Shown here piece after piece: positions 1,275 to 29,110 of a stretch of 64,000 bases of DNA. The position numbers and the translations under genes are program-made. Location of the stretch: NCBI RefSeq assembly GCF_010729895.1, contig NZ_AP022612.1:4774001-4838000 (forward strand), in the 5' to 3' direction. The notes below the pieces were generated by a model that was not told the origin of the DNA, did not search any database, and saw only the letters and a list, made by a program, of their open reading frames with translations. Origin of the DNA: Mycolicibacterium confluentis. GTDB lineage: Bacteria; Actinomycetota; Actinomycetes; Mycobacteriales; Mycobacteriaceae. Numbering within the stretch: the first letter of the stretch is position 1; each line of letters begins with the position of its first letter.

Positions 1275-2051
1275 CTACCCCAGATCCGCGCTGCCGAGTG
1301 CCCGCCTCGCCGCAGCGTGCGTCTGCTGCGCATACCCGACACCGAACAACACCACGTGAGCGAGCAACGGATACAGCTGATGAAGTGCGATTCGATCGCG
1401 CCAGCCCGGTCGCAGCGGGTGCGCGCTTTGATACCCGTCGACAATCTCGCTCAGATAGGGGCATCCGAACAGGTGAAGCATCGCCAGATCGGTCTCGCGG
1501 TGGCCGCCGCAGGCTGCCGGGTCGATCAGCACCACCCCGTCACCCGTCCACATCAGGTTGCCGCTCCACAGGTCCCCATGCAGCCGGGAGGGTGTGTCCT
1601 CATCATCGAACTCACCTGCACGACAGCGCGTTATGACGTCGCTGATGTCCCGCGCCGCGCTGTCCGTGAGTACAGGGTGCGCGCGCTCGAGAATCGGAGC
1701 CAGACGCTCGTCGGCGTAGAACCGACCCCACGTGTCATGTACCGCGAAGGTGATGGGCAGCGGATGACTCAACGGTCCGAAGTAACCCGGGCCGGACCAA
1801 CCCTCGGGCGGCGAGCCCCAGCCGTCGGCGCCGGCGTCGTGTGTCCTCGCCAATGCCCCGCCGAACTCGGAAGCGGCTTCGCGGGTCGGAGACACGGACT
1901 CCAGACGACGAAGCGTGAGGCTGATGTCGTCGTGTCCCAGCACCTCGACACACAACGCCCCTCCTGACACCGAAAGCCATTGCAGACCAGCGGCTTCGCA
2001 GGCGAAGAACCCCGGCGGTGCAGTGAGGCTGCGCTTGACGAATGTCTCCAT
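1275..2051 (-). CDS. Fructosamine kinase family protein (FN3K-like)
   Basis: 258 aa from the chosen ATG at 2051; the frame stays open 13 codons further, but METFVKRSLTAPPGFFACEA matches the usual N-terminus of the family. The kinase-like core is visible: HGDLWSGN (about 158-165, catalytic loop) and the following LIDPAACGGHRETDLAM (about 175-191, metal-binding DP and family signature). These fit the bacterial fructosamine-3-kinase/ketosamine kinase family (PF03881), which phosphorylates sugar-amine adducts and is thought to repair glycated proteins or use Amadori compounds. The substrate here is unknown. A strong hairpin terminator (2069-2104) separates it from the upstream paralogue-1 gene, so it should have its own promoter within a short space or depend on read-through. 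Confidence 0.8.
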   Translation of the reverse strand: METFVKRSLTAPPGFFACEAAGLQWLSVSGGALCVEVLGHDDISLTLRRLESVSPTREAASEFGGALARTHDAGADGWGSPPEGWSGPGYFGPLSHPLPITFAVHDTWGRFYADERLAPILERAHPVLTDSAARDISDVITRCRAGEFDDEDTPSRLHGDLWSGNLMWTGDGVVLIDPAACGGHRETDLAMLHLFGCPYLSEIVDGYQSAHPLRPGWRDRIALHQLYPLLAHVVLFGVGYAQQTHAAARRALGSADLG

Positions 2052-2068
2052 GATCCAAGTATGAAACG

Positions 2069-2104
2069 CGAGAGCCCCTGCGGTGTGCACCGCAGGGGAT
2101 CTCG
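2069..2104 (-). terminator. Hairpin terminator of PE-PPE-like paralogue 1
   Basis: Perfect 10-bp arms CCCCTGCGGT (2075-2084) and ACCGCAGGGG (2089-2098) with a 4-base loop, extended after one G-A mismatch by CGAGA/TCTCG. It lies 11 bases past the stop of the 2115-5075 gene. No long U-tract follows, which is usual for mycobacteria. Confidence 0.7.
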
Positions 2105-2114: not shown

Positions 2115-5075
2115 TCACTCAGCGGTTTCGGACTTCTGCTTCTTCTTCGGCGTGACGGCCTTCTTCACCTTGTCGACGGCTTTGTCCACGGCCTTCTTCA
2201 CGTCGGCTCCGGCCTTCTTGATACCGGCCTCGGCCTTCTTCACCGCGTCCTTGACCGGCGTCTTGCGGGCGGAGTCGGAACCGTCCGACAACGCGAGTTT
2301 GTCCTTGCCGCCAGCCTTCTCGAGACGATCCCGCAGGTCGTTGGCAAAGGCCGTCGCCCGCGCTGAAAGCTCATCGGCGCGGTCCTTGACCGCCTTGGCC
2401 GCCTTACCGACCTCACGCTGACCCGCTGCGAGCTGCGTCTGCTGTTCACCGAAGGAAGGCTGCCGAAGTTCCTTCGGCAGCTTCGGTTCCACGGCCCCCA
2501 CCACGCCGGTGAGGAACTTGCTGACACCCTTGCCGACTTCGGAGCTGACCTTGGTGATTGCGTTACCGACCACAGGCACGGACTTCTCCCACGCCTCCTT
2601 CAGTTCGGCCGGCAGCGTCACGTTGAGCGCACCGAGAAGCTTCTCCACCTGCCCCAGGAAGCGACCGTTTATGTCGGTGATCTCGGCGCCGATGCCAGCC
2701 CCCAGGATGCTGATGACGTCACCGGCCAGCTGAGCCTTCTGGGCGCGGGTCATCGTCTGGGTGCCGAACAGGGTCGGGACGTGCATCTGATCCAGCGTTC
2801 GGTCGTAGGTGATGGTGCCGTCGGCCTCCACCACACGCTCCCAGTCCGTGTACGAGACGTTGGTCAACGTCTTCAACAGCGGCTCAAGCGCGTCGGCCAG
2901 CGGGGTGTTGATGTCTGTCCCGGTTGCGGTGCCGAGCGCGCCGGCCACGAGTCGGATCGGTGAGAGCAGCGGCAACTCGTCGAGGGTGACGGTGCCGTAG
3001 ATGGTGCCGTCGGGACCCGTGTAGCTGTTGAAGTCCAGTCCGCTGTCCTCGTAGTTGACCAGCGCCGACGCCAAGTTCACCGCCAGCAGCGCCGCAACCG
3101 CCGAGTTCGCCCACGCCACCGGGCTTGCCGTCACCGGAGCATCGGAGAGCAGGTCGTACTCCCAGGTCAGATCGGTCTTGATGGTAATCACCATGGGCTT
3201 GCCGTCGGCACTCTCCATGACCGCCACCAGATTGCCGAGGTCATCGAGTTGGATGTTCGGCGCCCCACCCTCACCGAGCAGCAGCTTGGCGATGTCCAGG
3301 CCCTCCAGCCCCTCCGGCAGCACATTCTGGCTGTCCGGAGACACCGGATTGACGCCGGTGAGCTCCTGATAGATCGGCGCGAAGCGGGCGTACAGACCGC
3401 CGTTGGCGCGCCCCGGATTACGCAGCAGCGTCAGCGTGAACAGATGAAGGTCGATCACCCCACCCGGAATCTCGGTGTACGCCGGGTAGCGCGGACTGCC
3501 GTCCGGATTGGTCGGCACGCCCGGGAAGTTCAGGTCGCCGGGCAGCGGGTAGGACGTGATGATCTCGTCGATACCCCCGTCGCCGACGGTGTGGTTCACC
3601 TCCTGCACCACGGGATTGCCGTTCGCGTCGGTGGTGATCTTGATGTAACGGCCGTCGGTCTGCGGTTCGCCGGCCTTGATCTCGCCGGAGGTCACCGCGT
3701 CGATGAACTTCTGGTAGGCCAGGCCGGCAGTGATGGCCCCGTCGCCGTAGCCGATCAGATTGGTGTTGTAGATGTAGGTGGTCCAATTGAGCAGGGGCGC
3801 AAGGAATCCCAGGTCACCGGACAGGTAGTACGCCAGATCACGCGTGGACAGTCCAGTCAGCGCGCTCAAATTCTCCAGATCGAGGTCCCCGCTGAGCAGC
3901 GCGGAGAGGTCCAGGTCCTGCAATCCGGTGATGTCATTGGTCGGTGACACCCACTGGCCGAAGGTGTTGGTGGTCCAACCGCCGGGGATCCAGCCCTCAA
4001 CGGGTTGCGTCTCGTAGATCTGCTTCGGGATGCTCGGGTCGACGGCGTCTTCGGCGCGCTGTTCCCAGCTCTCGCCGGGCAGGCTGAACTTAGTGCGGTC
4101 GAACGAATACTCGTAGGTGCCAGCGTTGATTGGCTTGACAACGTTACTCTTCAGCCAGTCATAGGCGAGTCCCGCGGTACCAGAAGGCCTCGTAACGCCA
4201 AGCGCCGCAAGAGGGTCGTTAATGACCACAGGGTATGTGCCCGTGTACTCACCGGTTTCGAGAAATGCGTCGAGTTTGGCTGGGTCGTTCTTAAACGGGT
4301 TGTCGATGGTGACCGTCGTCTCGATGGGGCTGGTCACCGGCTTGCCGAAGATCTTCTGATTCGACCAACTGCCGAAGATGCTCGCCAGGCTGAATTTGGT
4401 GATGACGATCGAATACTCCTTCTTCCACCAATCCGGCTCTGTCACCGTGTAGGAGAACGTGACGTTGATCGTGTCCGCCGCGAGGACCTTGTCCTTGTCC
4501 GCCTTGATGACCTCTGCGAGCGCCGCCTCGTACGCCTCTTGATACTCCGGGTTGTCGACCAGCACCTGCTGAGTGCCGGTCTGCCCCCACGTCCGCGGCG
4601 TGTAGTACTGATCGTTGCCTGGATTCTGCAGTTCACCGAGATCCATCTGGCCCAGCAGAGCGGCGAAGTCGCCGGCGGTCAGATCCTCAAGATCGATGTC
4701 GCTCAGGTCCAGGCCACCCAGATTCGGGTTGTACCACTGCACCCAGGTCGGGTTGAGATCAACGCCGCCGGTGCCCCAGCCGACCAGGGTGAAATCCGGG
4801 TTTTCCCGATCTTTGACGATGTTGTTGTAGATCGTCTCGGCGTCATTCTCGACGTTGTTGACACCCAGCCAGTCCGGCGCCCCGACGATGTAGGTCGCGG
4901 CGTCCGCTGTGAACGGTGCGACGCTGACAGCCATCGCGCTGGCCAAGGCCACACCACTCAGTGCGACCTTCGTGGCATTCCCCTTCAGCACGGTTGCTGT
5001 GGCCGCCGCACTCCCTGCGTCCTTCTTCGCCCGCGCCCGACGCTGCCTACGATTTCCCAGATCTCCGTTGACCAC
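2115..5075 (-). CDS. Exported PE-PPE-like pseudo-hydrolase, paralogue 1 (with large insertion and Lys-rich tail)
   Basis: 986 aa, GTG start. An Arg/Lys-rich N-region and hydrophobic stretch end in ADA-A near residue 59, a likely signal peptide. The C-terminal two thirds resemble the PE-PPE (PF08237) alpha/beta hydrolase domain: GYGDGA (442-447) stands where that family has GYSQGA, so the nucleophile Ser is Gly. NPGRANGGL (553-561), YDLLSDAP (640-647) and LPLLSPIR (701-708) match other conserved blocks, and the usual His after the Asp block is not seen. Compared with its neighbours it has about 200 extra residues between signal and domain, including two Leu/Asp-rich stretches (about 120-150 and 383-422). 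Residues about 940-982 are Lys/Ala repeats of histone-H1 type. A hydrolase is unlikely; a structural or binding role in the envelope is inference. Confidence 0.7.
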   Translation of the reverse strand: MVNGDLGNRRQRRARAKKDAGSAAATATVLKGNATKVALSGVALASAMAVSVAPFTADAATYIVGAPDWLGVNNVENDAETIYNNIVKDRENPDFTLVGWGTGGVDLNPTWVQWYNPNLGGLDLSDIDLEDLTAGDFAALLGQMDLGELQNPGNDQYYTPRTWGQTGTQQVLVDNPEYQEAYEAALAEVIKADKDKVLAADTINVTFSYTVTEPDWWKKEYSIVITKFSLASIFGSWSNQKIFGKPVTSPIETTVTIDNPFKNDPAKLDAFLETGEYTGTYPVVINDPLAALGVTRPSGTAGLAYDWLKSNVVKPINAGTYEYSFDRTKFSLPGESWEQRAEDAVDPSIPKQIYETQPVEGWIPGGWTTNTFGQWVSPTNDITGLQDLDLSALLSGDLDLENLSALTGLSTRDLAYYLSGDLGFLAPLLNWTTYIYNTNLIGYGDGAITAGLAYQKFIDAVTSGEIKAGEPQTDGRYIKITTDANGNPVVQEVNHTVGDGGIDEIITSYPLPGDLNFPGVPTNPDGSPRYPAYTEIPGGVIDLHLFTLTLLRNPGRANGGLYARFAPIYQELTGVNPVSPDSQNVLPEGLEGLDIAKLLLGEGGAPNIQLDDLGNLVAVMESADGKPMVITIKTDLTWEYDLLSDAPVTASPVAWANSAVAALLAVNLASALVNYEDSGLDFNSYTGPDGTIYGTVTLDELPLLSPIRLVAGALGTATGTDINTPLADALEPLLKTLTNVSYTDWERVVEADGTITYDRTLDQMHVPTLFGTQTMTRAQKAQLAGDVISILGAGIGAEITDINGRFLGQVEKLLGALNVTLPAELKEAWEKSVPVVGNAITKVSSEVGKGVSKFLTGVVGAVEPKLPKELRQPSFGEQQTQLAAGQREVGKAAKAVKDRADELSARATAFANDLRDRLEKAGGKDKLALSDGSDSARKTPVKDAVKKAEAGIKKAGADVKKAVDKAVDKVKKAVTPKKKQKSETAE

Positions 5076-5087
5076 AGCCCCCCCGCC

Positions 5088-5106
5088 TTTCTCAGTTAGT
5101 TCTCAG
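5088..5106. promoter_or_regulatory. 11-bp-period direct repeat upstream of paralogue 1
   Basis: TTCTCAG occurs at 5089-5095 and again at 5100-5106, exactly 11 bases apart, 13 to 31 bases before the GTG at 5075. The same arrangement is found before the three other paralogues, which suggests an OmpR/PhoB-type response-regulator site. Confidence 0.45.
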
Positions 5107-5624
5107 CTTGTGCCAGGGACGCTAACACTCGATTGACGCGTGTGCATATTTTCCAACCTTCAGCGTTAAGGGATGTTTGAGTTTTCAAGCTAATCGTCAT
5201 GGCAAACGCCACCCGCTACAAACCAGGTCTTTGAGAACCCGCAATAACTTCACGGGCTCCCACAGTTCGCCGAAGTGGAACAGGACGGCGGAATTGCCAC
5301 AACAACCGCGCTTTCCCCCGCTGGCTATCTATTCGCTCAGATAACCGCAGACTGTTGAAAACGCAACATTCAGCAGCCATAACGGCGCGACGGCACTCGA
5401 TCACAGATTGATCAGCTAATGCACGTAGCGAGCGTTTGTAGCAACATTCGTCTCAGATCGCGCCATCCAGATGTTTGCGAATGCACGACGCCCCAGGGCA
5501 GCAGTTGGAACGAAATGGCACCATCAGTGACCGCAGATGAGAAAATCACAGAATCCCGACACCCACCGCCGGGATCGTCGCCGAGCGTCGCTGAGGACCG
5601 CTCAAATTTAAACTGGCAAGATTG
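5107..5624. other. Intergenic region without convincing gene
   Basis: About 520 bases of lower GC than the flanking genes. It must hold the promoter of paralogue 1. Short open frames on both strands (for example 5216-5404 and 5419-5628) have no ribosome binding site, atypical composition and no recognisable motif. I see no RNA gene or repeat beyond the direct repeat at 5088-5106. Confidence 0.5.
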
Positions 5625-6368
5625 CTAGCTCAGCCACTCCACGAACTGAGCAGAACTGATCACCGGGGCGAAGAAGTTGTTGATCCGCTCAAATGCGGCG
5701 GGCTCCTGATCGGGCCGGACGGCGCCCGTCGCGTCACCGATGACAATCGGCAGCAGGCCATGGTCGCGCGCCGCACGGGCGTTGCCCTCCACGCACCAAT
5801 CCAGGTGGATGCCCGTGATCACGACCACCTCGACTTTCTGCCTGGCCAACGCCCCGGGAAGGTCGGTGCCGACAAAGGCTGTCTGCAGTGCCTTCTCATA
5901 GAACTCGTTGTCTCCGGGCTCTACCAATTCACGAAGCTCACCGACAAGCTCGTTGTCCCAGGCGATCTGCTCCGGCGTGGCGTCCAGATGACCGGTCCAC
6001 CCGGCATACTGCACGCGATCGAAGTCCGTCTGCGGGTACTCGTCGCGGAACACGGTGTAGCCAATCCAGTTGAAGGATCGGAAGTTCGGTGCCTTCCGTG
6101 CGGCTTGGACGGACTTCACTGTCGCCTCAAGGCTTCCGCGCAGTGCGTGCCCTTCCGCGTACTGCACGCCGCCGGGCTTGTACAGCGAGTTCGACTGGCT
6201 GATCGACAGAAACGCTGCCGGGCGCGAGAGGATCTCGCGGAAGTCCAACTGCTGCCACTGCGGAGCCAGCGGCGGAATGGACGCGACGTTCGAGGCGGGA
6301 AGGTCCGCATCGAGGACGACCGGTTCCAGCGGGGTGGTGCGAGCGGCGGTGTCAGAGACGGCGGTCAT
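5625..6368 (-). CDS. Isochorismatase-like cysteine hydrolase, lacking the usual N-terminal Asp
   Basis: 247 aa from the ATG at 6368 (MTAVSD); an in-frame ATG eight codons upstream is also possible. The C-terminal half has the family signature: a catalytic Lys region (EKALQTAFVGTDL) and TGIHLDWCVEGNARAARDHG with the putative nucleophile Cys, then the IGDATGA segment. In most members the third triad residue is Asp in a V-D-M-Q motif near the N-terminus; here the corresponding strand reads AAFLSISQSN, so Asp appears replaced by Ser. The substrate could be an amide such as nicotinamide or a ureido compound, or activity may be altered. It sits inside the paralogue array between copies 1 and 2, same strand, after the terminator at 6424-6462, so it needs its own promoter. 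Confidence 0.75.
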   Translation of the reverse strand: MTAVSDTAARTTPLEPVVLDADLPASNVASIPPLAPQWQQLDFREILSRPAAFLSISQSNSLYKPGGVQYAEGHALRGSLEATVKSVQAARKAPNFRSFNWIGYTVFRDEYPQTDFDRVQYAGWTGHLDATPEQIAWDNELVGELRELVEPGDNEFYEKALQTAFVGTDLPGALARQKVEVVVITGIHLDWCVEGNARAARDHGLLPIVIGDATGAVRPDQEPAAFERINNFFAPVISSAQFVEWLS

Positions 6369-6423
6369 GCCGCGATCATTCCTGACCGGCAACGACGTGC
6401 CGAGTCTTGTATTCGTGCAGATT

Positions 6424-6462
6424 CGAAAGAGGGCCCCGCCGCAACGGCGGGGCCCTCTTTCG
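6424..6462 (-). terminator. Strong hairpin terminator of paralogue 2
   Basis: Perfect 17-bp inverted repeat: CGAAAGAGGGCCCCGCC (6424-6440) and its complement (6446-6462) around a 5-base loop, eight bases after the stop of the 6471-8819 gene. The outer arms provide a short U-rich end on either strand. It insulates the isochorismatase-like gene from paralogue 2. Confidence 0.85.
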
Positions 6463-6470
6463 TCAACCTG

Positions 6471-8819
6471 TTATTCAGTGTCGTTCTGCGGCGCCTTCTT
6501 CGGCGGGGTCAGGGCCTTGCGCACCTTCTCACCGGCCTTGTCGACGGCCGCCTTGACCTTGGCGCCCGCCTTCTCGACGCGCTTCTTGGCGTCATCACCG
6601 GCCTGCTCCGCACGCTTCTTGGCCTCGTCGCCGGCCTTCTTGAGCTCAGCCCGCACCTTCTGCAGGGAATCTTTGAGCTTGGCCTTCTCGGCCGCTCCCG
6701 GCTTCACCCCTGAATCGTCGAACGACGGCAACAGCGCGCGGGGATCCTCGAAGCGGTCACGCAGTTCATGGGCGGCGTCCCGCGCCTCGACCAGGGCCTT
6801 GCCGACCTGCTTCTGCACATCGGCGATCTGTGCCTGGGTGGGAGGAGGCGGCAGGGCAGGCAACTGGGCATCGATTTCACGGACATACTTCGTCACGCCG
6901 TCGCCAATCTCCTTGGCCCGCTCCGTGATCGAGGTACCCACCGCAGCGAGGGACTGGTTCAGCTCCTCCTTCTGCGCAGCAGTCAGTTCGATGTTGAGCG
7001 CCTTGGCGAGTTCGGCTGCCGCCACCGGAAGCACCTCGTTCAATTCGGTGCCCACGCCGCGACCCAGCGCGGTGATCAGGTCACCGGCCAGGTAGGCCGC
7101 CTGCTCGCGGGTGAGCGTCGGCGTGCCGAACAGCGTTGGGACCCCCGCCTGGTCGAGCGTTCTGGTCCAGGTGCCGTCCTCATTGCGAACCACGTCGGTG
7201 TAGGCGCTGTTGACCAGGATCTTCAGCATCGGCTCAAGCGCATCCGCAATCGGAGTATTGATCGAGTTCGGGTTCTGGTTCTGCAACGTGCCCAACAACT
7301 GTGCGGGAAGCCGCAGCGGAGCCAGCAGCGGCAGTTGGTTGACCGGGATGGTGTAGTAGATCGTCCCGTCGGGTCCAACGTGGCCGCCGTCACCGAGGTC
7401 GTCGAGGTCGACACCGGTGAGCAGATTGGTCAGCATCAGCGCCGAGGCCACCGAGTTGGCCCACGCGATCGGGTTGGCGGTCGCCGGTGCGTCGGAGAGC
7501 AGGTCGTACTGCCATCCGACATCCGCCTTGAGGGTGACGACAATCGGCTTGCCATCGGCGTTTTCGAGAACCGCCTGCAGATTGCCGAGTTCGTCGAGGC
7601 TGAGGTTACTGGTGTCGCCCTTCAGCAGGTTCGTCAGCAGCGCCGGATCGACACCCTCGGGCAGCACGTCTTGGCGGTCCGGGCTGACCGGGTTGACTCC
7701 AGTGAGCTCTTGGTAGATCGGCGCGAAGCGCGCATACAGTCCGCCGTTCGCCCGCCCCGGGTTGCGCAGCAGCACCAGGGACAACACCGTCATGTCGAGA
7801 ACACCTCCGCCCTGGGCGGATTCGTAGGCCGGCGGCTGGCCCGAGCCTGGGTACACGATGTCGGGCAGATCGGTCGGATCGTTGGTCTCTTGGACGGTGA
7901 TCAGGGTGACCTGGCCCTGCGCGTCGACGAACACGATCTTGCGGGGTCCGGTCAGCGCCCCACCAACGGTGTACGGGTCGTAGCCCTCATGGGTCTCACC
8001 GTTGACGCTGTCGATGAACGCCTGGTACGCCTGCCCCGCGGCGATGGCACCGTCGCCGTACGCGATGAGGTTCACATTGCTCAGGTACGCCGTCCAGTTC
8101 AGAAGCGGTGCGAGCGCACTCAGGTCACTGTTCTGCAGAACGTAGGCGGCATAGGCCAATTGCCCGGCGGTCGGAAGATCATCGATGTCGGTGCCCGTGA
8201 CCCACTGCCCCGCGGTGACCGTGGTCCAGTAGCCGTCCTCGATGACGCCGAAGTCCGGCACCGTGATGCTGATGTTGATCATCTTGGGGATGTCTTTGAC
8301 AGCGTTCGACGCATCCTGTGCCGCCTTCTGCTGAGCGATCGGACGAGCCTTGTTCTCTGCGCAGCTCCGTCCGCAGTTCCAACTCAGCGCCTTCACCGTC
8401 TCCGCGGCAAAGTGCGCCGCGTAGGCCGCGTTGTAAGCCACGTCATAGGCAGGCTGGTAGGCCGGGTTCACACCCTGGTAGGTCTCGACGTGCGAACCGG
8501 TCTGCCCGACCTCGGGCAGCGTGTACTCCGGCACTCCGTCGACCCAACGCACCCAGACCGGGCGCAGGTCGACCCCACCGGTCCCCCACCCGATCAGCGG
8601 GTTCTTGTCCTTCGCCGCGACGATCGCGTCGTTGATCGCGACCGCGTCAGACGGCAGAACCGATCCGTCGCCGATGGGCAGCCAGTCGGGGAAGCCCACG
8701 AAATAGGTCTCTGTCGACGCCGCGTTCGCCGCGATCGGCGTCAGGCCGACAGCGACGGCCGACATCGACGCCGCACCCGCGAGTGCCAGCCTTTTCATGC
8801 GCGATCTCCGGTGTGACAT
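6471..8819 (-). CDS. Exported PE-PPE-like pseudo-hydrolase, paralogue 2
   Basis: 782 aa. A basic start (MSHRRSRMKR) and hydrophobic core end in ANA-A near residue 33: a clear signal peptide. An ATG at codon 8 with GGAG nine bases before it is an equally good start. Diverged PE-PPE domain: AYGDGA (253-258) replaces GYSQGA, so the nucleophile Ser is Gly; NPGRANGG (353-360), YDLLSDAP (438-445) and LPLLAPLR (496-503) are conserved. This copy alone keeps a His (480) near the position of the catalytic His. A Cys pair (149, 153) could form a disulphide outside the cell. Residues about 714-776 are Lys/Ala/Glu-rich repeats (KKAGDEAKKRAEQAGDDAKK) predicted to be one long amphipathic helix. It has its own terminator and an 11-bp direct repeat upstream. 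Function unknown. Confidence 0.72.
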   Translation of the reverse strand: MSHRRSRMKRLALAGAASMSAVAVGLTPIAANAASTETYFVGFPDWLPIGDGSVLPSDAVAINDAIVAAKDKNPLIGWGTGGVDLRPVWVRWVDGVPEYTLPEVGQTGSHVETYQGVNPAYQPAYDVAYNAAYAAHFAAETVKALSWNCGRSCAENKARPIAQQKAAQDASNAVKDIPKMINISITVPDFGVIEDGYWTTVTAGQWVTGTDIDDLPTAGQLAYAAYVLQNSDLSALAPLLNWTAYLSNVNLIAYGDGAIAAGQAYQAFIDSVNGETHEGYDPYTVGGALTGPRKIVFVDAQGQVTLITVQETNDPTDLPDIVYPGSGQPPAYESAQGGGVLDMTVLSLVLLRNPGRANGGLYARFAPIYQELTGVNPVSPDRQDVLPEGVDPALLTNLLKGDTSNLSLDELGNLQAVLENADGKPIVVTLKADVGWQYDLLSDAPATANPIAWANSVASALMLTNLLTGVDLDDLGDGGHVGPDGTIYYTIPVNQLPLLAPLRLPAQLLGTLQNQNPNSINTPIADALEPMLKILVNSAYTDVVRNEDGTWTRTLDQAGVPTLFGTPTLTREQAAYLAGDLITALGRGVGTELNEVLPVAAAELAKALNIELTAAQKEELNQSLAAVGTSITERAKEIGDGVTKYVREIDAQLPALPPPPTQAQIADVQKQVGKALVEARDAAHELRDRFEDPRALLPSFDDSGVKPGAAEKAKLKDSLQKVRAELKKAGDEAKKRAEQAGDDAKKRVEKAGAKVKAAVDKAGEKVRKALTPPKKAPQNDTE

Positions 8820-8826
8820 GCCGCCC

Positions 8827-8856
8827 TTTCAGGTTTTTCTCAGGTTTTTCCTAAGG
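8827..8856. promoter_or_regulatory. Triple 11-bp-period direct repeat upstream of paralogue 2
   Basis: Three related units, TTTCAGG (8827-8833), TCTCAGG (8838-8844) and CCTAAGG (8850-8856), are spaced 11 bases apart, 8 to 37 bases before the start codon. The first unit overlaps the putative ribosome binding site (AAAGGG on the coding strand). Confidence 0.5.
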
Positions 8857-8953
8857 AATTCTGAGGCAGATCTACGACACGGGTCGAGCCCACGAGGGCA
8901 TCCGCAGTGCTGGTCATTGCATTTTCAACTACTTTGCGGACGGAGGTGTCGCG

Positions 8954-8977
8954 GCGACGTAAGTTCAGTTACGTCGC
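8954..8977. promoter_or_regulatory. Inverted repeat, candidate operator upstream of paralogue 2
   Basis: GCGACGTAA (8954-8962) and TTACGTCGC (8969-8977) form perfect 9-bp arms around a 6-base spacer, about 135 bases before the paralogue-2 start. No gene ends here, so an operator is more likely than a terminator. Confidence 0.4.
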
Positions 8978-9534
8978 ATTCACGGCGCGGCCGACGGGTT
9001 GGCGAACCCATCGAGTATTGCCGTGACACCAGGTCACGGTCGCGACTGCTCGACCACCCCCTAGCACGTGCAGGTTTCCCGACAATGACTTGGCCGGCCA
9101 TCGATTTGCCGCAAACGTGAGCGGGGAAGATGCAGGAACCTAACGGCTGGGTCCGCCGCACACAATCGACCTGGCTCGGTGCAACTTAGGCGGGCTCAAA
9201 AGTTGTTGCCGAGAAGTCGCAGCCCGGCACGCGTGAGTGGTGGGGCCACAGCAGCGGAAGGGGTGCCAGATTATCTGTCCACCTGTTCAGATGTTCATGG
9301 TAAGTTGGTGCCCACGGGCCGGCCGCGGCACAGACGTCGATGCAGCACATCAGGGGTCACGCCATCACACGGGTGGCGCCGCGGCCGGCGCACACACACA
9401 CTTCACCCTCGCAGGGTTCGCGGACCCAGTTGTCCGTCAAGGCCTGCGGCTCCCGCACGATTGCCAGCCACATTCACTGCGTCGCTGAGACCACAGCCCC
9501 GTGGGCGATTTCGGGAGCCCGAAACGAGACCCGG
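8978..9534. other. Intergenic region without convincing gene
   Basis: About 560 bases between paralogues 2 and 3. Open frames on both strands are short, lack ribosome binding sites and read as low-complexity Arg/His/Pro peptides. Apart from the small hairpin at 9509-9524 I see nothing definable. Confidence 0.45.
9509..9524 (-). terminator. Weak hairpin after paralogue 3
   Basis: TTTCGGG and CCCGAAA arms (7 bp) separated by two bases, 11 bases past the stop of the 9535-11883 gene. In practice it would form a 6-bp stem with a 4-base loop. Weaker than the other terminators of the array. Confidence 0.3.
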
Positions 9535-11883
9535 CTAGTCGGTGTCATTCGCAGGCGCCTTGTTCGGCTCGCTGTCATTACCCGTGCCACCATCGTTCGG
9601 CTGGTCGCGATCCTCACGCGTGAGGGTTGTTCCCCCAGAGGGAGTTTCGTTGTCTGCATTGTCGCGGTTCACTTCCACGCCGCCTCCTCGATGAGCACCG
9701 ATGCGCACCGAAGCCGACAATTCACCGGCAGCGCTCACTCTTTCGCGCTCCAGCTTCCGCTTCAGCTCCCATACCGTTGGCCGCTTACTCGCGCCCTGGC
9801 CAGTCTCCGGGCCGCCTGCAGGCAGACTGCCGGCTGTGACGGCTGAGTCCGGCTCGGCGGGATCTGAGCCAAAGGCTTTCTGCTCGATCGCAGCAGCCCG
9901 GAAGCCCGATGACTCCTCAGACTCCTCCTCAGACTGCTCGTCGAACGACTCGGTGGTTCCGGCGGCATTCAACGCCTGCGAGCCCGAACCCGCACTCGTC
10001 GTTCCGAGCAGGCTTCCGATCAGCTCCCCCACGGCCCCCTCAGCCGCATCGACGATCGGGGAGACGACCTTGTCGGCAGCCTGAATGATTGGAGCGACGA
10101 CGGGAGCGACCACCTCCTGGCGCTTGCGGAGCTCAGACTGGCTGGGGTCAGGCAATTCTGGCAGCACCGGGCCGATGGCGTGCAGGAAGTCCGACACACC
10201 GTTGCCGACACCTCGGCTGACGGTCTTGATGGCTTCGCCTGGCAATCCCAGCAGTTGACCCAGCTGTTGCACCTGTTGCTGCGGTACCTGGATTCCCACC
10301 GCGCCGAGGAGTTGGACGACACCGCCGAGCACACGTGTCAGCACATCGGTGAGCTCGTCTCCTACCCCTCGTCCCAACGCGGCGATCAGATCGCCGGGCA
10401 GGTACAGCGCCTGATCCTTTGTCAGAGTGCGGGTTCCGAACAGAGTGGGGTCCCCGAACTTGTCCAACGTCCGGTCCCAGGTCCCGTCCGGGTTGCGGAC
10501 GACGTCTGCGTAGGCGATGTCGGTCAGGATTCGCAGGAACGGTTCGATCGCATCCGAGAACGGGGTGTTGATGTTCTGGCCGGTGATCAAGCTCAGCAGT
10601 TGGGCTGGCAGGCGGAGTGGGGCCAGCAGCGGCAGTTGACCGGCCGGAAGTGTGTAGTAGATGGTGCCGTCGCGAGGGTCGATGAACCCTCCCCCGCCCA
10701 GGTCATTGAGATCGAGCCCCAAAAGGTTCGTGATCAGGAACGACGAGGCGATCGCATTGGCCCACGCGATGGGATTGGCAGTGGCCGGGGCGTCCGACAG
10801 GAGGTCGTACTCCCAGGTGACGTCCGCCTTGATGGTGATGATCGTCTTCTTGCCATCACCGTCATTCGTGAGTGCGTTGAGCAGATCCAGAAGGTCCTGG
10901 ACATCGACGTCGCTGACGTCACCGGTGAGGATCTTGGTGATCAGGTCCGGGTCGACGCCAATCGGCAGCACGTCCTGGCGGTCCGGCGTGACCGGGTTGA
11001 CCCCTGTGACCGCCTCGTAGATAGGCGCGAACCGGGCGAACAGGCCGCCGTTGGCCCGGCCCGGATTTCGCAGCAGGATGAGCGACAGCAGCGTGATATC
11101 AACGACGCCACCGGGTTTGACGATGTCATAGACCGGAGACCCCTCGGGCGGAAAGTACCAGAACGGGAGGCCGAGACCGCCGGGATAGATGCCCTCGACC
11201 ACTGTGTGGTGCACCGGATTCCCCGGTGCACCGGGGACGCTGATCTCCCGGGGCCCGGTCTGGGGCGCCCCCGCTTCGATCTCATCGGCGCGCACCGCGT
11301 CGATGAAGGCCTGATACGCCGTTCCGGCCGCGATCGCCCCCTCTCCGAGGCCGACGAGGTTGACGTTCTGCAGGTACCAGGTCCAGTTGGTCAGCGGGGC
11401 GACCGTGGCAGCGGCCGCGGCGTCGAGGAACTCCACCGGGTAGGACCGCGGGTCAACCCATTGCCCGGCGAGTCTCGTCCACGTGCGTAGGTTGCCGCTT
11501 AATATGTTGCCGGTCGTGAAGATCTCCCCGGCGGTCCGGCGCCACACCGGCGCGACCGTGACCGGTGGCGTGTGCTCGCCACCGAGAAGCTCGGTCGGCA
11601 GGCCCGTGTAGAACAGATCGTCCTGCGCACCCGCGAGTGCGTCGGAGATCGCGCCGGGGTTCGACGGAAGCGTTTGGATCGGCCCGAGCAGACCCTGGAT
11701 CGGTAACCACCCAGGGATGCCCACCAAGTAGGTCTCACTGATCGCAGCATTGGCCATCGCTGGCGTCAGGCCAACAGCCACCGCAGTTGCTGCGGATACG
11801 CCGACGAGAGTTAGTTTCTTTGCCTGAATCTCACGTCGACGTCGTCTATGCGACTGAGCAGATGCAGAATGCTTGCCAGACAT
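9535..11883 (-). CDS. Exported PE-PPE-like pseudo-hydrolase, paralogue 3 (acidic tail)
   Basis: 782 aa, ATG with GGGGGGA just upstream. A very basic N-region (SHRRRRREIQAKK) and hydrophobic stretch end in ANA-A near residue 46: signal peptide. The PE-PPE-like domain has GLGEGA (178-183) in place of GYSQGA, then NPGRANGG (273-280), YDLLSDAP (359-366) and LPLLAPLR (417-424); no His is visible at the usual site. Unlike copies 1, 2 and 4 the tail after about residue 620 is not Lys/Ala-repetitive. It is Ser/Glu/Asp-rich (EEESEESS, later many Asp, Asn, Gly) and looks disordered. Membership in the array is clear from the shared core with copy 2, including the segment ENADGK-like/DGDGKK, the DRTLDK-type block and ALGRGVG. 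Function unknown. Confidence 0.72.
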   Translation of the reverse strand: MSGKHSASAQSHRRRRREIQAKKLTLVGVSAATAVAVGLTPAMANAAISETYLVGIPGWLPIQGLLGPIQTLPSNPGAISDALAGAQDDLFYTGLPTELLGGEHTPPVTVAPVWRRTAGEIFTTGNILSGNLRTWTRLAGQWVDPRSYPVEFLDAAAAATVAPLTNWTWYLQNVNLVGLGEGAIAAGTAYQAFIDAVRADEIEAGAPQTGPREISVPGAPGNPVHHTVVEGIYPGGLGLPFWYFPPEGSPVYDIVKPGGVVDITLLSLILLRNPGRANGGLFARFAPIYEAVTGVNPVTPDRQDVLPIGVDPDLITKILTGDVSDVDVQDLLDLLNALTNDGDGKKTIITIKADVTWEYDLLSDAPATANPIAWANAIASSFLITNLLGLDLNDLGGGGFIDPRDGTIYYTLPAGQLPLLAPLRLPAQLLSLITGQNINTPFSDAIEPFLRILTDIAYADVVRNPDGTWDRTLDKFGDPTLFGTRTLTKDQALYLPGDLIAALGRGVGDELTDVLTRVLGGVVQLLGAVGIQVPQQQVQQLGQLLGLPGEAIKTVSRGVGNGVSDFLHAIGPVLPELPDPSQSELRKRQEVVAPVVAPIIQAADKVVSPIVDAAEGAVGELIGSLLGTTSAGSGSQALNAAGTTESFDEQSEEESEESSGFRAAAIEQKAFGSDPAEPDSAVTAGSLPAGGPETGQGASKRPTVWELKRKLERERVSAAGELSASVRIGAHRGGGVEVNRDNADNETPSGGTTLTREDRDQPNDGGTGNDSEPNKAPANDTD

Positions 11884-11900
11884 ATTCCCCCCAATGCGCC

Positions 11901-11917
11901 TTCAGCGAATTCCCAGG
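11901..11917. promoter_or_regulatory. 11-bp-period direct repeat upstream of paralogue 3
   Basis: TTCAGCG (11901-11907) and CCCAGGA (starting 11912) place their CAG cores at 11903 and 11914, 11 bases apart, 18 to 35 bases before the ATG. The match to the motif of the other paralogues is weaker here. Confidence 0.35.
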
Positions 11918-12279
11918 AACCTAACATCGGAATTGACGTGTGGGCAACAATTCCGTAGCTTGCCTTCCCATTTGCTTGCTTGCGCAATGACCGGAGAATC
12001 GCGCTTCTAGCCACCCTGCCGACGAAGAACCCATATTCACTGCAGGTGACAGGCGTTATTACGCCCGATGGCCCCATGCAGAATCAAGGACAGCGGTGTT
12101 GATTTTCCATCCCGATAAACATCGACCGAAAATCGCCGCGATTCCCGATTTCACCGATTCCGCGGCCTGGATGACCCGCATGAGAAAATGATCTTGAAAA
12201 TCCACTCCAGTTCGCCAAGCGATCAGACGCGATCCGCAGACGGCACCCGCCAGAATTTACGAGAACCACCTCACCCGTG
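11918..12279. other. Intergenic region without convincing gene
   Basis: About 360 bases of relatively AT-rich sequence upstream of paralogue 3. It must contain that gene's promoter. No ORF with a ribosome binding site or recognisable product is seen. Confidence 0.4.
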
Positions 12280-12423
12280 TTACATGGCTTTGCTGTATGC
12301 CCACCAACGGGCGCCCGCCACCACCCCACTCGCCGCGCCCGCGGTCAGCGGGGAGCGCCCTAGTTCGAACAGCCCGCCTCCCAGCGACCTCACTGCAGTC
12401 GCCACCGCGCGACGCCGGCTCAT
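12280..12423 (-). CDS. Candidate small protein of 47 aa
   Basis: An ATG at 12423 opens a 47-codon frame ending TAA at 12280-12282. The peptide begins MSRRRAVATAVRSLGGGLFE and ends in ARWWAYSKAM. It has a basic start, a Gly/Leu/Ala-rich middle and an aromatic C-terminus, compatible with a small membrane-associated or secreted protein. Codon third positions are GC-rich like those of real genes. There is no clear Shine-Dalgarno sequence, so it could be leaderless or spurious. It lies directly downstream of the terminator of paralogue 4, on the same strand. Confidence 0.4.
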   Translation of the reverse strand: MSRRRAVATAVRSLGGGLFELGRSPLTAGAASGVVAGARWWAYSKAM

Positions 12424-12458
12424 GGTCACTGTCAGCGTGAGTGGCCGCGAAAAGGAGA

Positions 12459-12485
12459 ACCGCCCCCGGCGATGCCGAAGGCGGT
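12459..12485 (-). terminator. Hairpin terminator of paralogue 4
   Basis: ACCGCC (12459-12464) pairs with GGCGGT (12480-12485), and an inner GGC/GCC pair lies in the loop. It is 43 bases after the stop of the 12528-14663 gene. Moderate strength. Confidence 0.4.
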
Positions 12486-12527
12486 CCCTCCCCCAACTTT
12501 GTAGGGTTAAGCGGCGGGCGCGCGATG

Positions 12528-14663
12528 TCAGCTGGCTTCTGCGAGCGCTTTCTTGGCCGGCTTCGGCTTGGCGTTGTCGACCGCTTGCTTCACCGAGTCA
12601 CCCGCCTTGTCGACGTTCTTCTTGACGTTGTTGACGGCCTTCTCCACCGCATCGCCGGTCTTCTTGAGCTCCTTCTGAATCTTGTCGCCTGCCTCCTTGA
12701 GGTCCGCGCGAACCTGCGCACGCTGCTTCTTCAAGGCAGCGGCCGTGGCTTTCGCGCTCTTGGCGAGGTCCGAGTCCTCCAGCAGGTCGACCGAATTCAG
12801 TTCGGCCAGTGCGCTCTTGAGCGACGTGGGCTTCTTGGGCTCGGGAGCGCCCTGATCGCCTTCTGGCGCGAGTTTGCCGTCGGCCTCGAGGGCACGAGCG
12901 TTGGTGGTGTCCAGGGCCTGAATCTTGGCGAACGAACTTGAACCGCCCACGCCCAGTGCGTCGTCGACCGCGCCTTCGGTCTGTGCGTTGAACCCGTCGG
13001 CAGCCTGAAGCAGTGGCTTCAACGCTGTCTGGAGTCCGTCGAACGCACCATTCGCCAGCCCCTGCGCGCCGTCGATGCCTTGGTTGACGAGCGCCGACAC
13101 CGCCAGCGCGATCTGGTTCTGGATCAGCGCTTTCATCATGTCGTTGAACGCGGCCTGCCCGAACACGCTCGGGGTCCAGGCGACGGGGTTGAGCAGGTTG
13201 GCCTGGATGTCATCGAGCAGTCGGTTGGCGATGATCTGTCCGCCCTCGACCTGTTGGCTCGGCGTCAGCGGTGAGTGCCACAGCAGAGCCTGCTCGCCGC
13301 CCATATCGAATCCGCGCAGCAGCGTGGCCGGATCGACATCCTGGTAGCCCGTGTTGACCGCCAGACGCAGCGCCCCCTCGATCGAATTCAGCAACGGCTG
13401 CGGGACATTCACACCGAGAATTCCAAGCAGGCGTGGTCCGAGGTCGAACGGTTCGAGCAGCGGGAGGTTGCCCGAGTCGTAGGTGATGAAGGTGTCCTTG
13501 CCGACGATGCCGGGGAGCGGCTTGAGTTGCAGGAGGTCGAAGATCTTGTTGATCAGCGGGATCACCGCGGACCCCTGGCCGCCGGTGATGTCCACCATCA
13601 CGCCCGCGCCGTTGAGGAGGCCTAGTGCCAACGGCCCAACCTGGCTGCCGAGGTTGGTATTGCCGAAGTTCAGATCATCGGGAATGAGATAGGTCAGCAG
13701 GATCGACCCGGCGATGGCGTTGGCCCAGGCCAATGGGTTGAGGGTGCTGGGTGCGTCCGAGGTTGCGTTGTAGGCCCAACTGATGTCGAGGACCGACGTG
13801 TTGAGGATCTTGGTGATCTTGCCGTTGCTGTCCTTGTTGGTGTAGCTGCCGGCCGCCGGAGTGGTGAGGTCGACGCCGAAGAGATTGGTGAACGGGGTTG
13901 CCAGAGATAACAATCCGCCGCCGGGTCGGCTGACGTTGTTGAGGAAGATCAGCCACTGCGCCGTGACGCCCTCGCCCCAGTCGGGATCGTTCGACGTGAC
14001 GGCCTCGATCATGTCGCGATAGGCCAGCGACGTCGACAGCGCGCCGAGACCCTCGGAGAAGATGATGGCGCGGCGCTGATTGAGAATCGGGGTGGCCTTC
14101 ACGATGGCCTTCGCGGCATCTTCGACTGTAAATCCCGAGTTCGGAATGTTGGTGCCGAACAAGTCGTTCAGAGCCTCCGCGACCGGCCCCACAATTGGCA
14201 GGTTCTTCACGAGCGGTGGCACCGCGCCGAGGATTGGACCCAACACCAGATCGCCGGTGTAGCTCAACCCGTTCACTGAGTCGTAGATGTCGCCGGGCAG
14301 CGGCCCAGGCGCACCCGTCTCCACCACCAGGCCGACCACAGTGAGGATCTGTTGGACGGCAGCTGTGATGGTCGGGTTGTCGAGCAGTCCGACGGCGCCG
14401 AGGATGACGTTCTCCGGAGTGATGCCCAGCGCGTCAGCGATCCAGAAGACGGGCCCCACACCGTAGAGGCCGACGATCGCCGCCAGTTCCACCTCGGCGG
14501 TGATGGCTCGCTGCTCCACACCGACGCTCACCCGCTCCACCTGCGCCTGGAAGGCAGGCGAGGTGACCCCAAGGGTCAATGCCGCGGTCGTGGCCATCGC
14601 CGCGGCGGTGACCGCCGCGGTCTTAGCCATGGCCAGCTTGGGCGGTGTGGGGGCTGAAGTCAT
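12528..14663 (-). CDS. Exported PE-PPE-like pseudo-hydrolase, paralogue 4 (most diverged, Lys-rich tail)
   Basis: 711 aa, ATG at 14663 with GGGAGAG upstream. An Ala/Thr-rich hydrophobic stretch (13-38) ends in AFQA: probable signal peptide. It is the most distant copy of the array. EGLGA (204-208) aligns with the nucleophile elbow and again lacks Ser. SRPGGGLL (245-252) aligns with NPGRANGGL. YNATSDAP (298-305) aligns with YDLLSDAP, so even the conserved Asp is Asn here. LPLLEPF (400-406) matches the LPLL block. Residues about 615-706 form a Lys/Ala/Asp heptad-like tail (for example VEKAVNNVKKNVDKAGDSVK), predicted coiled-coil or amphipathic helix. A truncated relative of this copy lies immediately upstream at 14967-15247. 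Role unknown; all three expected catalytic residues seem absent. Confidence 0.68.
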   Translation of the reverse strand: MTSAPTPPKLAMAKTAAVTAAAMATTAALTLGVTSPAFQAQVERVSVGVEQRAITAEVELAAIVGLYGVGPVFWIADALGITPENVILGAVGLLDNPTITAAVQQILTVVGLVVETGAPGPLPGDIYDSVNGLSYTGDLVLGPILGAVPPLVKNLPIVGPVAEALNDLFGTNIPNSGFTVEDAAKAIVKATPILNQRRAIIFSEGLGALSTSLAYRDMIEAVTSNDPDWGEGVTAQWLIFLNNVSRPGGGLLSLATPFTNLFGVDLTTPAAGSYTNKDSNGKITKILNTSVLDISWAYNATSDAPSTLNPLAWANAIAGSILLTYLIPDDLNFGNTNLGSQVGPLALGLLNGAGVMVDITGGQGSAVIPLINKIFDLLQLKPLPGIVGKDTFITYDSGNLPLLEPFDLGPRLLGILGVNVPQPLLNSIEGALRLAVNTGYQDVDPATLLRGFDMGGEQALLWHSPLTPSQQVEGGQIIANRLLDDIQANLLNPVAWTPSVFGQAAFNDMMKALIQNQIALAVSALVNQGIDGAQGLANGAFDGLQTALKPLLQAADGFNAQTEGAVDDALGVGGSSSFAKIQALDTTNARALEADGKLAPEGDQGAPEPKKPTSLKSALAELNSVDLLEDSDLAKSAKATAAALKKQRAQVRADLKEAGDKIQKELKKTGDAVEKAVNNVKKNVDKAGDSVKQAVDNAKPKPAKKALAEAS

Positions 14664-15422: not shown

Positions 15423-16247
15423 TCAGGGCTGGCCCAGCACCTTGCGGACCAGCACGTCAGACACCGACGACGGCAGTCGGTTGAGCACAGCCATCTGCAC
15501 CGCCGGGCTCAGTCCCACCGGATAGCGCGCATGCGGGCGCTTGGCGGTCAGCGCTTCTTCGACGACCTTGGCGACGTTGTCGACGGGCACCGCGATGCGC
15601 CGCGACAATGGGATCATCTTTCGAAATCCGGCGACGTGCTTCGCATACAGCACGCGTTGTTCGGCACTCATGGCCGCCTCCAGATCGTCGGCGGTCTGCT
15701 CCGCGTTCTCCCAGAGATCGGTGTCGGTCTGCGCGGGTTCGACCACGTGGACGCCGATATGCCAGGGGCGCAACTCCATTCGAAGCGCATCCGCAGCCGC
15801 CTCCAGCGCGAACTTGGAGGCACAATAGGCACCCAGCAGCGGAGTGGAGATCCGGCCATTCACGCTGGAGATGAACACAATCCGGCCCCGCGAGGCGCGC
15901 AGTCGCGGCAGCACCGCCTGGGTGACAGCCATCTGCCCGACGACGTTGACCTCAAGTTGCCGCCGCAGCTCGTCGACCCCGATGGTCTCCATGGGGCCAC
16001 CCACCACGATGCCGGCATTGTTGACCACCGCATCCAAACGTGCCGGCAGGGCCGCGTCGAGTGCCTCGAGGTCGTCGGAGTTCGTGACGTCCAACCGCAC
16101 CGCCGACACCCGGGGCAGCGATCCCAGCACCGCCGCATCCTCGGAACGACGCACACCGGCGATGACATCCCAGCCCAACGTCGACAGATGCGACACGATG
16201 GCCCGACCGATTCCTCGGGAGGCGCCGGTCACCAGGACAGCAGGCAT
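15423..16247 (-). CDS. Short-chain dehydrogenase/reductase (SDR)
   Basis: 274 aa. Classical SDR motifs: TGASRGIG (7-14, NAD(P) binding), D in the acidic-residue loop after VRLDV, NNAG (about 75-78), a Ser in ISSVNG (about 126) and YCASK (about 141-145, catalytic Tyr and Lys). The C-terminal part contains the PAQTDTDLWENA region typical of oxidoreductases acting on small carbonyl compounds. Substrate unknown. The start at 16247 has a GACC-ATG context without strong ribosome binding site. It is followed after nine bases upstream by the DUF1275 gene on the same strand, so the two probably form one transcript. Confidence 0.85.
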   Translation of the reverse strand: MPAVLVTGASRGIGRAIVSHLSTLGWDVIAGVRRSEDAAVLGSLPRVSAVRLDVTNSDDLEALDAALPARLDAVVNNAGIVVGGPMETIGVDELRRQLEVNVVGQMAVTQAVLPRLRASRGRIVFISSVNGRISTPLLGAYCASKFALEAAADALRMELRPWHIGVHVVEPAQTDTDLWENAEQTADDLEAAMSAEQRVLYAKHVAGFRKMIPLSRRIAVPVDNVAKVVEEALTAKRPHARYPVGLSPAVQMAVLNRLPSSVSDVLVRKVLGQP

Positions 16248-16256: not shown

Positions 16257-16955
16257 CTAGTCCGTGCCGACTTCCGCCGAAGCCGGTTCAGGTCCATACC
16301 GGAAGACCAGCATCGCCGCCAGCACCACACATGCCGCGAGCGCAATCACCGGCGCGACCGTGAACCTCGTCAGCGTGGCGCCCACTACGGCACCCCCGAG
16401 CATCGTCAAAACCACTGTGTAGCGGAGCTTCTCACGCGCTCCGGAGCCACCGGCCAGGCGGGAGTCGACGCCGATTCCGACGATCGTCGACGTCAGCACC
16501 GTGGTGCTGAGTTCCTGAACACCGAATTGGCGCGCGGCCGCGTTCTGCGATCCGAACGCGACGGCCAATCCGGCGATCAGGATCAGCTTCGAGTCATCGC
16601 GGTAGTCGAGGACACCCGTGCCGCCCAGCACCGCCAGGATCACCAGAAGTAAGGCCTCAGCGCCCAGGGACACCGTGATCCATTGCCGAGTATGGCGATC
16701 CAGGTGCCGGGCGAACCGGCCGCCGGCCACCGTCCCCACCAGGAAGCCGGCGAACGCGATGATCGCGGCAGTCAGGTCCACACCGGAATGCGGTACGAAC
16801 CAGAACCCGAGAAAGATCACATTGCCGGTCATATTCGCAACGAAGACATGACCGAGAACGAGGACGCTGACCGCGTCGATGAGTCCGGTGGCGAAGGTCA
16901 GCAGCAGAAGCGCGACGGTGGTGAGTTTCTCGGACACCGGAGAGGCGATGGCCAT
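16257..16955 (-). CDS. DUF1275 (YoaK-type) integral membrane protein
   Basis: 232 aa with about six hydrophobic segments. The N-terminal part (TGLIDAVSVLVLGHVFVANMTGNVIF, given here in part) with the Gly-His-Val-Phe-Xaa-Ala-Asn-Met-Thr-Gly-Asn signature is diagnostic of the DUF1275 family. No biochemical function is established for it. A second conserved segment is GSQNAAARQFGVQELSTTVLT around 145-165. It is the upstream partner of the SDR gene (spacing nine bases). Upstream sequence (16956-17110) holds the promoter and a short inverted repeat at 17085-17097. Confidence 0.8.
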   Translation of the reverse strand: MAIASPVSEKLTTVALLLLTFATGLIDAVSVLVLGHVFVANMTGNVIFLGFWFVPHSGVDLTAAIIAFAGFLVGTVAGGRFARHLDRHTRQWITVSLGAEALLLVILAVLGGTGVLDYRDDSKLILIAGLAVAFGSQNAAARQFGVQELSTTVLTSTIVGIGVDSRLAGGSGAREKLRYTVVLTMLGGAVVGATLTRFTVAPVIALAACVVLAAMLVFRYGPEPASAEVGTD

Positions 16956-19433: not shown

Positions 19434-20074
19434 TTGGTCACCTGGTCGAGCCTGGCGATCTTGTAGGTGCCGCCGTCAGGAGCCATCTGCACCCGGAGGC
19501 GGTACCCGCTCTCCTGGTCCGAGATGTTGGCGTTGCTCATCTTCACGCGCAGAGCCACCAGCACATCCATCGACCCGTCATCGTTGTGACGTTCGACCGC
19601 AGCCCGAATGTTGGACACCTGCACCTGCGCCTTGGCGGCCGCATAGGCGTCGACGAGGACACCGCTGTACAGCGCGGCCTGCGCCGCGAAATCGCCTGTG
19701 GAGCACTCGATGATCTTGCGTTGGCTCGCTGCCATGGCCGCGGCGTCGGGAGCCTGCGTGGCGATCACGCAGTCCTTGGCCGCCTGCACCGCCGCGGCCT
19801 CGTTCCCGCGACTGTCGCCCGCGCGGTTGCCCGCGATCGTCGCGAGGAGACCGCCACCGGCGATCAGAGCGCTGAGCAGGAGCAGCACGACACATCCCGC
19901 GACCACCCAGCCGCGGGTTGCCAGTCGGGAGTCAGGTCCGGGGTCCTCGACGACACCTGGTGCGAATTCGTCGTTTGACGCCGCAGAATCGAGAGTCGTC
20001 TCCCCGGAATCCAATTCGTCGTCCTCGGGAGCCAAGGTCGGGTTCAGCCGGCTGGCGCCAGCATCTCCTTCCAT
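19430..20074 (-). CDS. Mce-associated membrane protein (Rv0175-like)
   Basis: 214 aa. ATG at 20074 chosen: it overlaps the end of mce1F by 31 bases and gives the expected length of the family; the open frame above it is a shadow of mce1F. An acidic cytoplasmic arm (1-52) precedes one transmembrane helix (about 56-80, WVVAGCVVLLLLSALIAGGG) and an extracytoplasmic domain of about 130 residues ending in a YRLRVQMAPDGGTYKIARLD strand pair. Two Cys (about 102 and 124) may pair. First gene of the mas block after mce1F, part of the same transcript. Confidence 0.82.
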   Translation of the reverse strand: MEGDAGASRLNPTLAPEDDELDSGETTLDSAASNDEFAPGVVEDPGPDSRLATRGWVVAGCVVLLLLSALIAGGGLLATIAGNRAGDSRGNEAAAVQAAKDCVIATQAPDAAAMAASQRKIIECSTGDFAAQAALYSGVLVDAYAAAKAQVQVSNIRAAVERHNDDGSMDVLVALRVKMSNANISDQESGYRLRVQMAPDGGTYKIARLDQVTK

Positions 20075-24388: not shown

Positions 24389-24391
24389 CGG

Positions 24392-29109: not shown

Positions 29110-29110
29110 G

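Follow-up and report, generated by a model that had tools for sequence, protein, structure and literature searches.

The subject of this work is a tandem array of four genes in a 64,000-nucleotide stretch of Mycolicibacterium confluentis DNA (NCBI RefSeq assembly GCF_010729895.1, contig NZ_AP022612.1, positions 4,774,001 to 4,838,000 of the forward strand), which we refer to as the window and from whose first letter features are numbered. The four genes encode apparently exported relatives of the PE-PPE domain (PF08237) and lie directly downstream of the mce1 lipid-import operon. Judged from their sequences, the array proteins are no longer classical serine hydrolases, the nucleophile Ser being replaced by Gly, the usual His being gone and at least one Asp being left. 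Many genomes of the genus have a gene of this type downstream of mce1, locally expanded here into an array, and we propose, with a probability of roughly 0.46, that the array products are exported, non-catalytic lipid binders of PE-PPE-type fold that serve Mce1 at the outer envelope. The array genes are the following:

2115..5075, minus strand: copy 1 (family A), PE-PPE-like protein of 986 amino acids (aa), predicted to be exported; Gly444 in the nucleophile position; tail of 11-residue repeats
6471..8819, minus strand: copy 2 (family A), 782 aa; Gly255 in the nucleophile position; strongest 11-residue repeat tail of the array
9535..11883, minus strand: copy 3 (family A), 782 aa; Gly180 in the nucleophile position; tail lacking the 11-residue period
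12528..14663, minus strand: copy 4 (family B), 711 aa; Gly205 in the nucleophile position; tail of 11-residue repeats

An earlier reading of this DNA (the original prediction) had described four minus-strand paralogues with ordered PE-PPE blocks, and this description stands. The open reading frames are intact, and in each of them the nucleophile elbow is followed by NPGRANGG (copies 1-3) or its variant NVSRPGGG (copy 4), then by YDLLSDAP or, in copy 4, YNATSDAP, and finally by LPLL; over the alignment, copies 2, 3 and 4 share 49%, 40% and 26% identity with copy 1. The assignment of these blocks to PF08237 was likewise borne out. With Pfam hmmscan, copies 2 (34.2 bits) and 3 (27.5 bits) exceed the gathering cut-off of 21, copies 1 (17.8) and 4 (19.4) fall below it and reach 23.4 and 23 bits when neighbouring frame pieces are added, and PF08237 is the best or second-best match in every copy, these matches spanning only the C-terminal part of the domain. 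Profile-profile comparison (hhalign) with enzyme-type PE-PPE proteins, defined here as matching PF08237 at E<=1e-20 (in 34 such loci the catalytic residues were read, the elbow of L125 excepted), gave probabilities of 98.9% for family A, in a local alignment beginning past the elbow, 98.6% for family B, with the elbow included, and 99.3% and 97.9% for two further families, C and E, the latter with one effective sequence; one row each was filtered out of the B, C and E profiles by the program. No PE or PPE domain was detected by Pfam in any copy at E<=10, and each begins with a hydrophobic, signal-like N-terminus, both in keeping with what had been claimed. Six PF08237 matches at E<=1e-20 lie elsewhere in the same genome, so that the four copies could be compared with relatives from the same cell. 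By these sequence comparisons, the four copies are real, diverged relatives of the PE-PPE domain.

Homologue lists comprise the best 120 of 124 (family A) and the best 120 of 172 (family B) matches, from 8000 scored candidates each, and contain the window's own proteins and many near-identical rows. A plasmid search with copy 2 as the query gave no match. Two other proteins may be mentioned here: L007 (G000:C1:4100629-4101291), a PE-PPE protein of the same genome encoded away from mce1, which seemingly lacks the elbow Ser (SGRGSG) and has the Asp block EYAWNSSAP, and P0113, of 951 aa, in which a Gly elbow (AYGQGS) is joined to a Gly-rich tail (precomputed domain PF21526).

The catalytic residues were compared in an alignment of the four copies with 34 homologues and 13 enzyme-type PE-PPE domains. 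Whereas all 13 enzyme-type domains have Ser and His in the nucleophile and catalytic-His columns, the four window copies have Gly at the former, as originally predicted, encoded by these elbow codons:

3744..3746, minus strand: copy 1, GGC, Gly in place of Ser
8055..8057, minus strand: copy 2, GGC, Gly in place of Ser
11344..11346, minus strand: copy 3, GGA, Gly in place of Ser
14049..14051, minus strand: copy 4, GGT, Gly in place of Ser

The catalytic-His column holds Val or Asn (by gap placement) in copy 1 and Thr in copies 2, 3 and 4, so that His is missing at this column in all four copies and not in three, as had been stated; His480 of copy 2 sits away from this column. None of the copies has the GxSxG/S nucleophile motif or the Ser-Asp-His triad of PE-PPE serine hydrolases. 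In the YDxxxD block, copies 1-3 retain both Asp. The Asn reported for copy 4 is indeed there, at the first Asp, but the second Asp is kept, and conservation does not decide which one is catalytic: among the 34 enzyme-type loci the first is found in 32 (not in L004 and L136) and the second in 31 (not in L127, L128 and L134, where Ser, the first Asp and His are present), so either is possible. For Rv1430 (PE16), Sultana and co-workers named Ser199, Asp276 and His302 (PMC3037379), and the Ser199Ala variant is reported to be inactive (PMC3562317); judged by spacing, Asp276 is probably the first Asp of YDxxxD. Within family A, each Asp occurs in 71 of 71 rows of an alignment led by copy 2, and in family B, Asn and then Asp occur in 60 of 60 rows each. 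Neither of these two alignments contains an invariant or nearly invariant His. Family B has His-rich columns (His in 42 to 50 of the 60 rows), one of which is retained in copy 4 as His463, its only His, outside the stretch alignable with cutinases.

The array had been thought to have lost its catalytic Ser; the Ser is absent, but the loss did not happen there. The Gly is old and common to several exported families. It occupies the elbow in 118 of the 120 listed family-A proteins (P0001-P0120, some family-C rows included; P0111 and P0075 were unmatched by the pattern) and, by alignment, in 70 of 71 family-A rows, the other having Asp; one family-C row has Gln. Among the 120 listed family-B proteins, 103 have Ser, 13 have Gly (P0121-P0132, which are nearest to copy 4, and P0216) and four were unparsed, and the His of an LWHSPLT block is found in 95 of the 103 Ser-bearing and 5 of the 13 Gly-bearing proteins. 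The family-B proteins P0133-P0240 mostly show an SESLGG elbow, with Ser in the nucleophile position; they have no His in the usual position and a conserved one in the LWHSPLT block. A quickly built tree of 51 rows, which had been trimmed with a pattern requiring the second Asp, and with branch support from Shimodaira-Hasegawa-like approximate likelihood ratios (SH-aLRT) only, places the exported families in one group separate from the enzymes (SH-aLRT 100); no fewer than four changes of the elbow residue are needed on it. With the enzymes as root, this tree nests the Ser-bearing family-B rows among Gly-bearing ones, so that their Ser looks regained, by parsimony only. The ratio of nonsynonymous to synonymous substitutions (dN/dS) against a near relative, L017, is 0.25, 0.125 and 0.29 for copies 1, 2 and 3, respectively. 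Since the Gly is common to several exported families and purifying selection is seen, the domain was probably repurposed and not decayed.

Three of the four proteins carry C-terminal tails with 11-residue repeats:

6522..6665, minus strand: 33-nucleotide (11-aa) repeats of the copy 2 tail, encoding an amphipathic tail
2166-2255, minus strand: 33-nucleotide (11-aa) repeats of the copy 1 tail, matching those of copy 2
12558-12701, minus strand: 33-nucleotide (11-aa) repeats of the copy 4 tail, matching those of copy 2

The hydrophobicity of copies 1, 2 and 4 peaks at 97, 98.5 and 98 degrees (98.2 for an 11/3 helix), a peak reached by 8, 0 and 0 of 300 shuffles, respectively; no 11-residue period was found in the tail of copy 3, whose peak 181 of 300 shuffles reach. 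Among listed proteins, a peak between 96 and 100 degrees, matched by no more than 2 of 200 shuffles, was obtained for 77 of 112 in family A, 73 of 120 in family B and 8 of 15 in family C, and for 2 of 31 enzyme-type PE-PPE proteins by the same procedure, the best window being chosen before shuffling in families and enzyme control alike. Amphipathic helices of 11 residues are typical of apolipoproteins and also of late embryogenesis abundant (LEA) proteins. The array tails resemble the apolipoprotein helices in repeat type, with no kinship claimed, and Pfam matches to Apolipoprotein and ApoLp-III are weak and below cut-offs.

As for the fold, the models and their middling matches point tentatively to a cutinase-like alpha/beta hydrolase. 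The copy 2 model (me362ca7006da) has a mean predicted local distance difference test score (pLDDT) of 84.6, and that of copy 4 (m07db33f5f601) covers residues 39-520; Foldseek returned weak rows for the latter, headed by the Nir2 DDHD domain (E 0.079, probability 0.21), which is a lead and not evidence. Sequence searches of the PDB gave only chance helix matches for copy 2 and nothing convincing for an enzyme-type PE-PPE protein. The cutinase-like proteins Rv3802c (5w95) and MSMEG_6394 (3aja), which we take to be serine hydrolases, share 9-16% identity with the array proteins.

The array is preceded on its own strand by genes for a short-chain dehydrogenase/reductase (SDR) and a DUF1275 protein, mam-like and RDD genes, mceF to mceA, yrbEB and yrbEA, and fadD5. 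The genes around and within the array are:

1275..2090, minus strand: fructosamine-kinase-like gene, a recurrent neighbour of the family
5625..6392, minus strand: isochorismatase-family hydrolase gene, inside the array and flanked by copies 2 and 1
15423..16247, minus strand: SDR oxidoreductase, a recurrent neighbour, between mce1 and the array
16257..16955, minus strand: DUF1275 membrane protein, a recurrent neighbour
17111-17956, minus strand: mam-like gene, so named by its position after mceF; no Pfam match
18462-19433, minus strand: mam-like gene, likewise named by position after mceF; RDD domain
20044..28235, minus strand: mceF, E, D, C, B and A; MceA matches the M. smegmatis Mce1 chain 8fed_A at 4e-188
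28240..29908, minus strand: yrbEB and yrbEA permeases, MlaE family
30181..31833, minus strand: fadD5, first gene of mce1 (NF005857, 1048.9 bits against a cut-off of 733)
31907..32605, plus strand: GntR/FCD regulator, divergent from fadD5 and presumably standing where mce1R does

The operon is mce1, given the match of MceA to a Mce1 chain (the entry code 8fed occurs in PMC9882608), the FadD5 score and the place of fadD5 as the first gene of mce1 (PMC2867952). The isochorismatase-family gene, with a dN/dS of 0.03 against L017, is more conserved than the surrounding copies. The same genome has a second mce1-type mceA (L103, G000:C1:339033-340208), 62% identical, whose fetched stretch lacks the array's neighbours; an enzyme-type PF08237 gene lies at 374250, 35 kb upstream of it.

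The linkage to mce1 recurs across the genus. Relatives of copy 2 were found at E<=1e-5, a threshold that may let in distant enzyme-type matches, in 125 of 297 sampled genomes, and a relative lies within 40 kb downstream of an mce1-type mceA in 73 of the 95 genomes with listed rows, the window genome included (no row was listed for 30 of the 125 positive genomes). The count used 127 rows, with extra pieces and second copies in genomes already entered left out, and distances to the nearest typed mceA; the mceA lists are nearly complete (G002 and some second copies, for instance, are left out), one of them being a lower bound. On mceA-bearing contigs, 97 typed matches were placed: 86 at 5 to 40 kb downstream, one at 65-70 kb downstream and ten at more than 100 kb, with no match less than 100 kb upstream. 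For enzyme-type PF08237 genes in six genomes, the corresponding numbers within 40 kb are 1 of 40 downstream and 2 of 40 upstream. The order mce1, mam-like, DUF1275, SDR, then fructosamine kinase and PE-PPE-like genes was found in stretches of G012, G042, G102, G114, G183, G246, G262 and G280, with minor variations: no SDR gene was found in G183, and the kinase follows the PE-PPE-like genes in G012, G262 and G280.

On the other side of mce1, a different picture emerges in part of the genomes. Of the 297, 129 have the PPE-SVP domain (PF12484) and 125 the copy-2 family; 9 have both (PPE-SVP being represented by one match in seven of them) and 52 have neither. PPE-SVP is tied to the ESX-5 secretion system. 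The latter is described as confined to slow growers (PMC4418733). Five of 13 single-contig genomes rich in PPE-SVP have enzyme-type PF08237 genes at most 50 kb upstream of an mce1-type mceA, 26 of 134 such genes in total, with none at this distance downstream, against an expectation of about 2.2; five genomes were reached in 54 of 5000 random rotations. The other eight have no enzyme-type PF08237 gene within 50 kb on either side. In G006 (G006:C1:534690-549715), seven strong PF08237 genes stand in tandem, 29-43 kb upstream of an mce1-type mceA (578088). In M. tuberculosis, Rv0151c, Rv0152c, Rv0159c and Rv0160c carry a PE-PPE domain (PMC3037379) and mce1A is Rv0169 (PMC1810536). With exported families downstream and enzyme-type genes upstream, PE-PPE-type genes thus gather on one or the other side of mce1 according to lineage. 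Both this gathering and the PPE-SVP split follow clades, and may reflect few events.

A PE-PPE relative that does not cut, placed beside mce1, fits a binder or carrier, which is the reading we favour. The array proteins would be located at the outer envelope, where the ancestral acyl pocket might bind lipid chains without cutting them and the 11-residue amphipathic tails could attach to lipid surfaces; as their anatomy and conserved linkage suggest, they may hold or deliver acyl lipids for the adjoining Mce1 importer. The original prediction of an exported pseudo-hydrolase family, possibly lipid-binding or scaffolding, is thereby supported in part, the pseudo-hydrolase idea holding with the corrections given above, and the link to mce1 is our main addition to it. 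Weighing against this reading, family-A genes lie far from any mce1-type mceA in G020, G077, G087 and G102 and on contigs other than that of the mce1-type mceA in G114, G138, G180 and G193; G102 and G114 nonetheless have a family-C gene beside mce1. Such members away from mce1 in several lineages, the high divergence of the copies and the variable tails, copy 3 being without the period, would suit envelope surface or structural proteins in which the dead hydrolase fold acts as a protein-protein scaffold with no lipid cargo, next to mce1 by inherited gene order. We consider this unlikely, if worth keeping in mind, as the mce1 linkage is one-sided and recurs for several families and the amphipathic tails are commoner than in enzyme-type PE-PPE proteins.

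It is improbable, in our view, that some or all array proteins catalyse by another arrangement, be it acyl transfer via the conserved Asp or a family-B elbow Ser with a His from elsewhere. Such chemistry would explain the invariance of both Asp in the 71-row alignment and of the second Asp in the 60-row one, as well as the elbow Ser of the 103 listed family-B homologues, 95 of these with the LWHSPLT His, which is also kept in five Gly-bearing ones, and the PE-PPE protein Chp2 is reported to be an acyltransferase (PMC4183827). However, all four window copies combine a Gly elbow with no His at the usual column, Ser199Ala inactivates PE16 (PMC3562317), and the sole His of copy 4, His463, lies beyond the cutinase-alignable part. 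Decay into functionless paralogues would account for the lost catalytic residues, and we give it very little credence, for the four reading frames are intact over 711-986 codons, copies 1-3 show dN/dS values of 0.125-0.29 and the elbow Gly is retained in 118 of 120 listed homologues. Going beyond the favoured reading of lipid binders serving Mce1, one may speculate, with considerable doubt, that the array supplies the missing outer-envelope part of the Mce1 machine: disarmed PE-PPE esterases would carry fatty or mycolic acids to the Mce1 portal, a role matching, in mycobacteria that lack PPE-SVP, that of the strong PF08237 proteins which some PPE-SVP-rich mycobacteria have on the opposite side of mce1. 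The passage of lipids from the outer membrane of mycobacteria to the Mce1 tunnel is described as an open question (PMC9882608). An exported family with a lipase fold that lacks the usual catalytic residues and recurs next to mce1 is a concrete candidate for that route, testable in the laboratory mycobacterium M. smegmatis, which has family members (P0069 and P0227).

The array proteins resemble PE-PPE serine hydrolases such as PE16 in block order, profile-level homology, the Asp in YDxxxD and predicted fold class, and differ from them by the exchanges of Ser for Gly and of His for Thr or Val/Asn, a Sec-type leader in place of the PE/PPE domain, a length of 711-986 aa, the amphipathic tail in three of four and the site downstream of mce1. 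Rv1184c and Chp2 likewise have a PE-PPE domain and neither PE nor PPE; for Rv1184c a signal peptide is predicted, and it is counted among triad-bearing proteins (PMC3037379), unlike the window copies without a triad, and Chp2 is reported to work on the periplasmic face (PMC4183827). The Mam/Mas proteins, encoded downstream of mce operons and proposed as accessory ligand binders (PMC1810536), are similar in being exported and in their position; they belong to another family, and the window has its separate mam-like genes at 17111-19433. We found no description of the family in the literature searched, outside of which fall most subscription papers and bioRxiv preprints, and the text of the mce survey by Casali and Riley contains none of 'PE-PPE', 'PF08237' or 'esterase'. 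Database names are also at stake, many members being called 'PE-PPE domain-containing protein' and some 'alpha/beta hydrolase family protein', yet family A lacks the nucleophile Ser. Elsewhere in the window, the minus-strand gene at 46557-51011 encodes a P-type ATPase of 1484 aa, about 700 N-terminal residues of which have no Pfam match at E<=1e-5.
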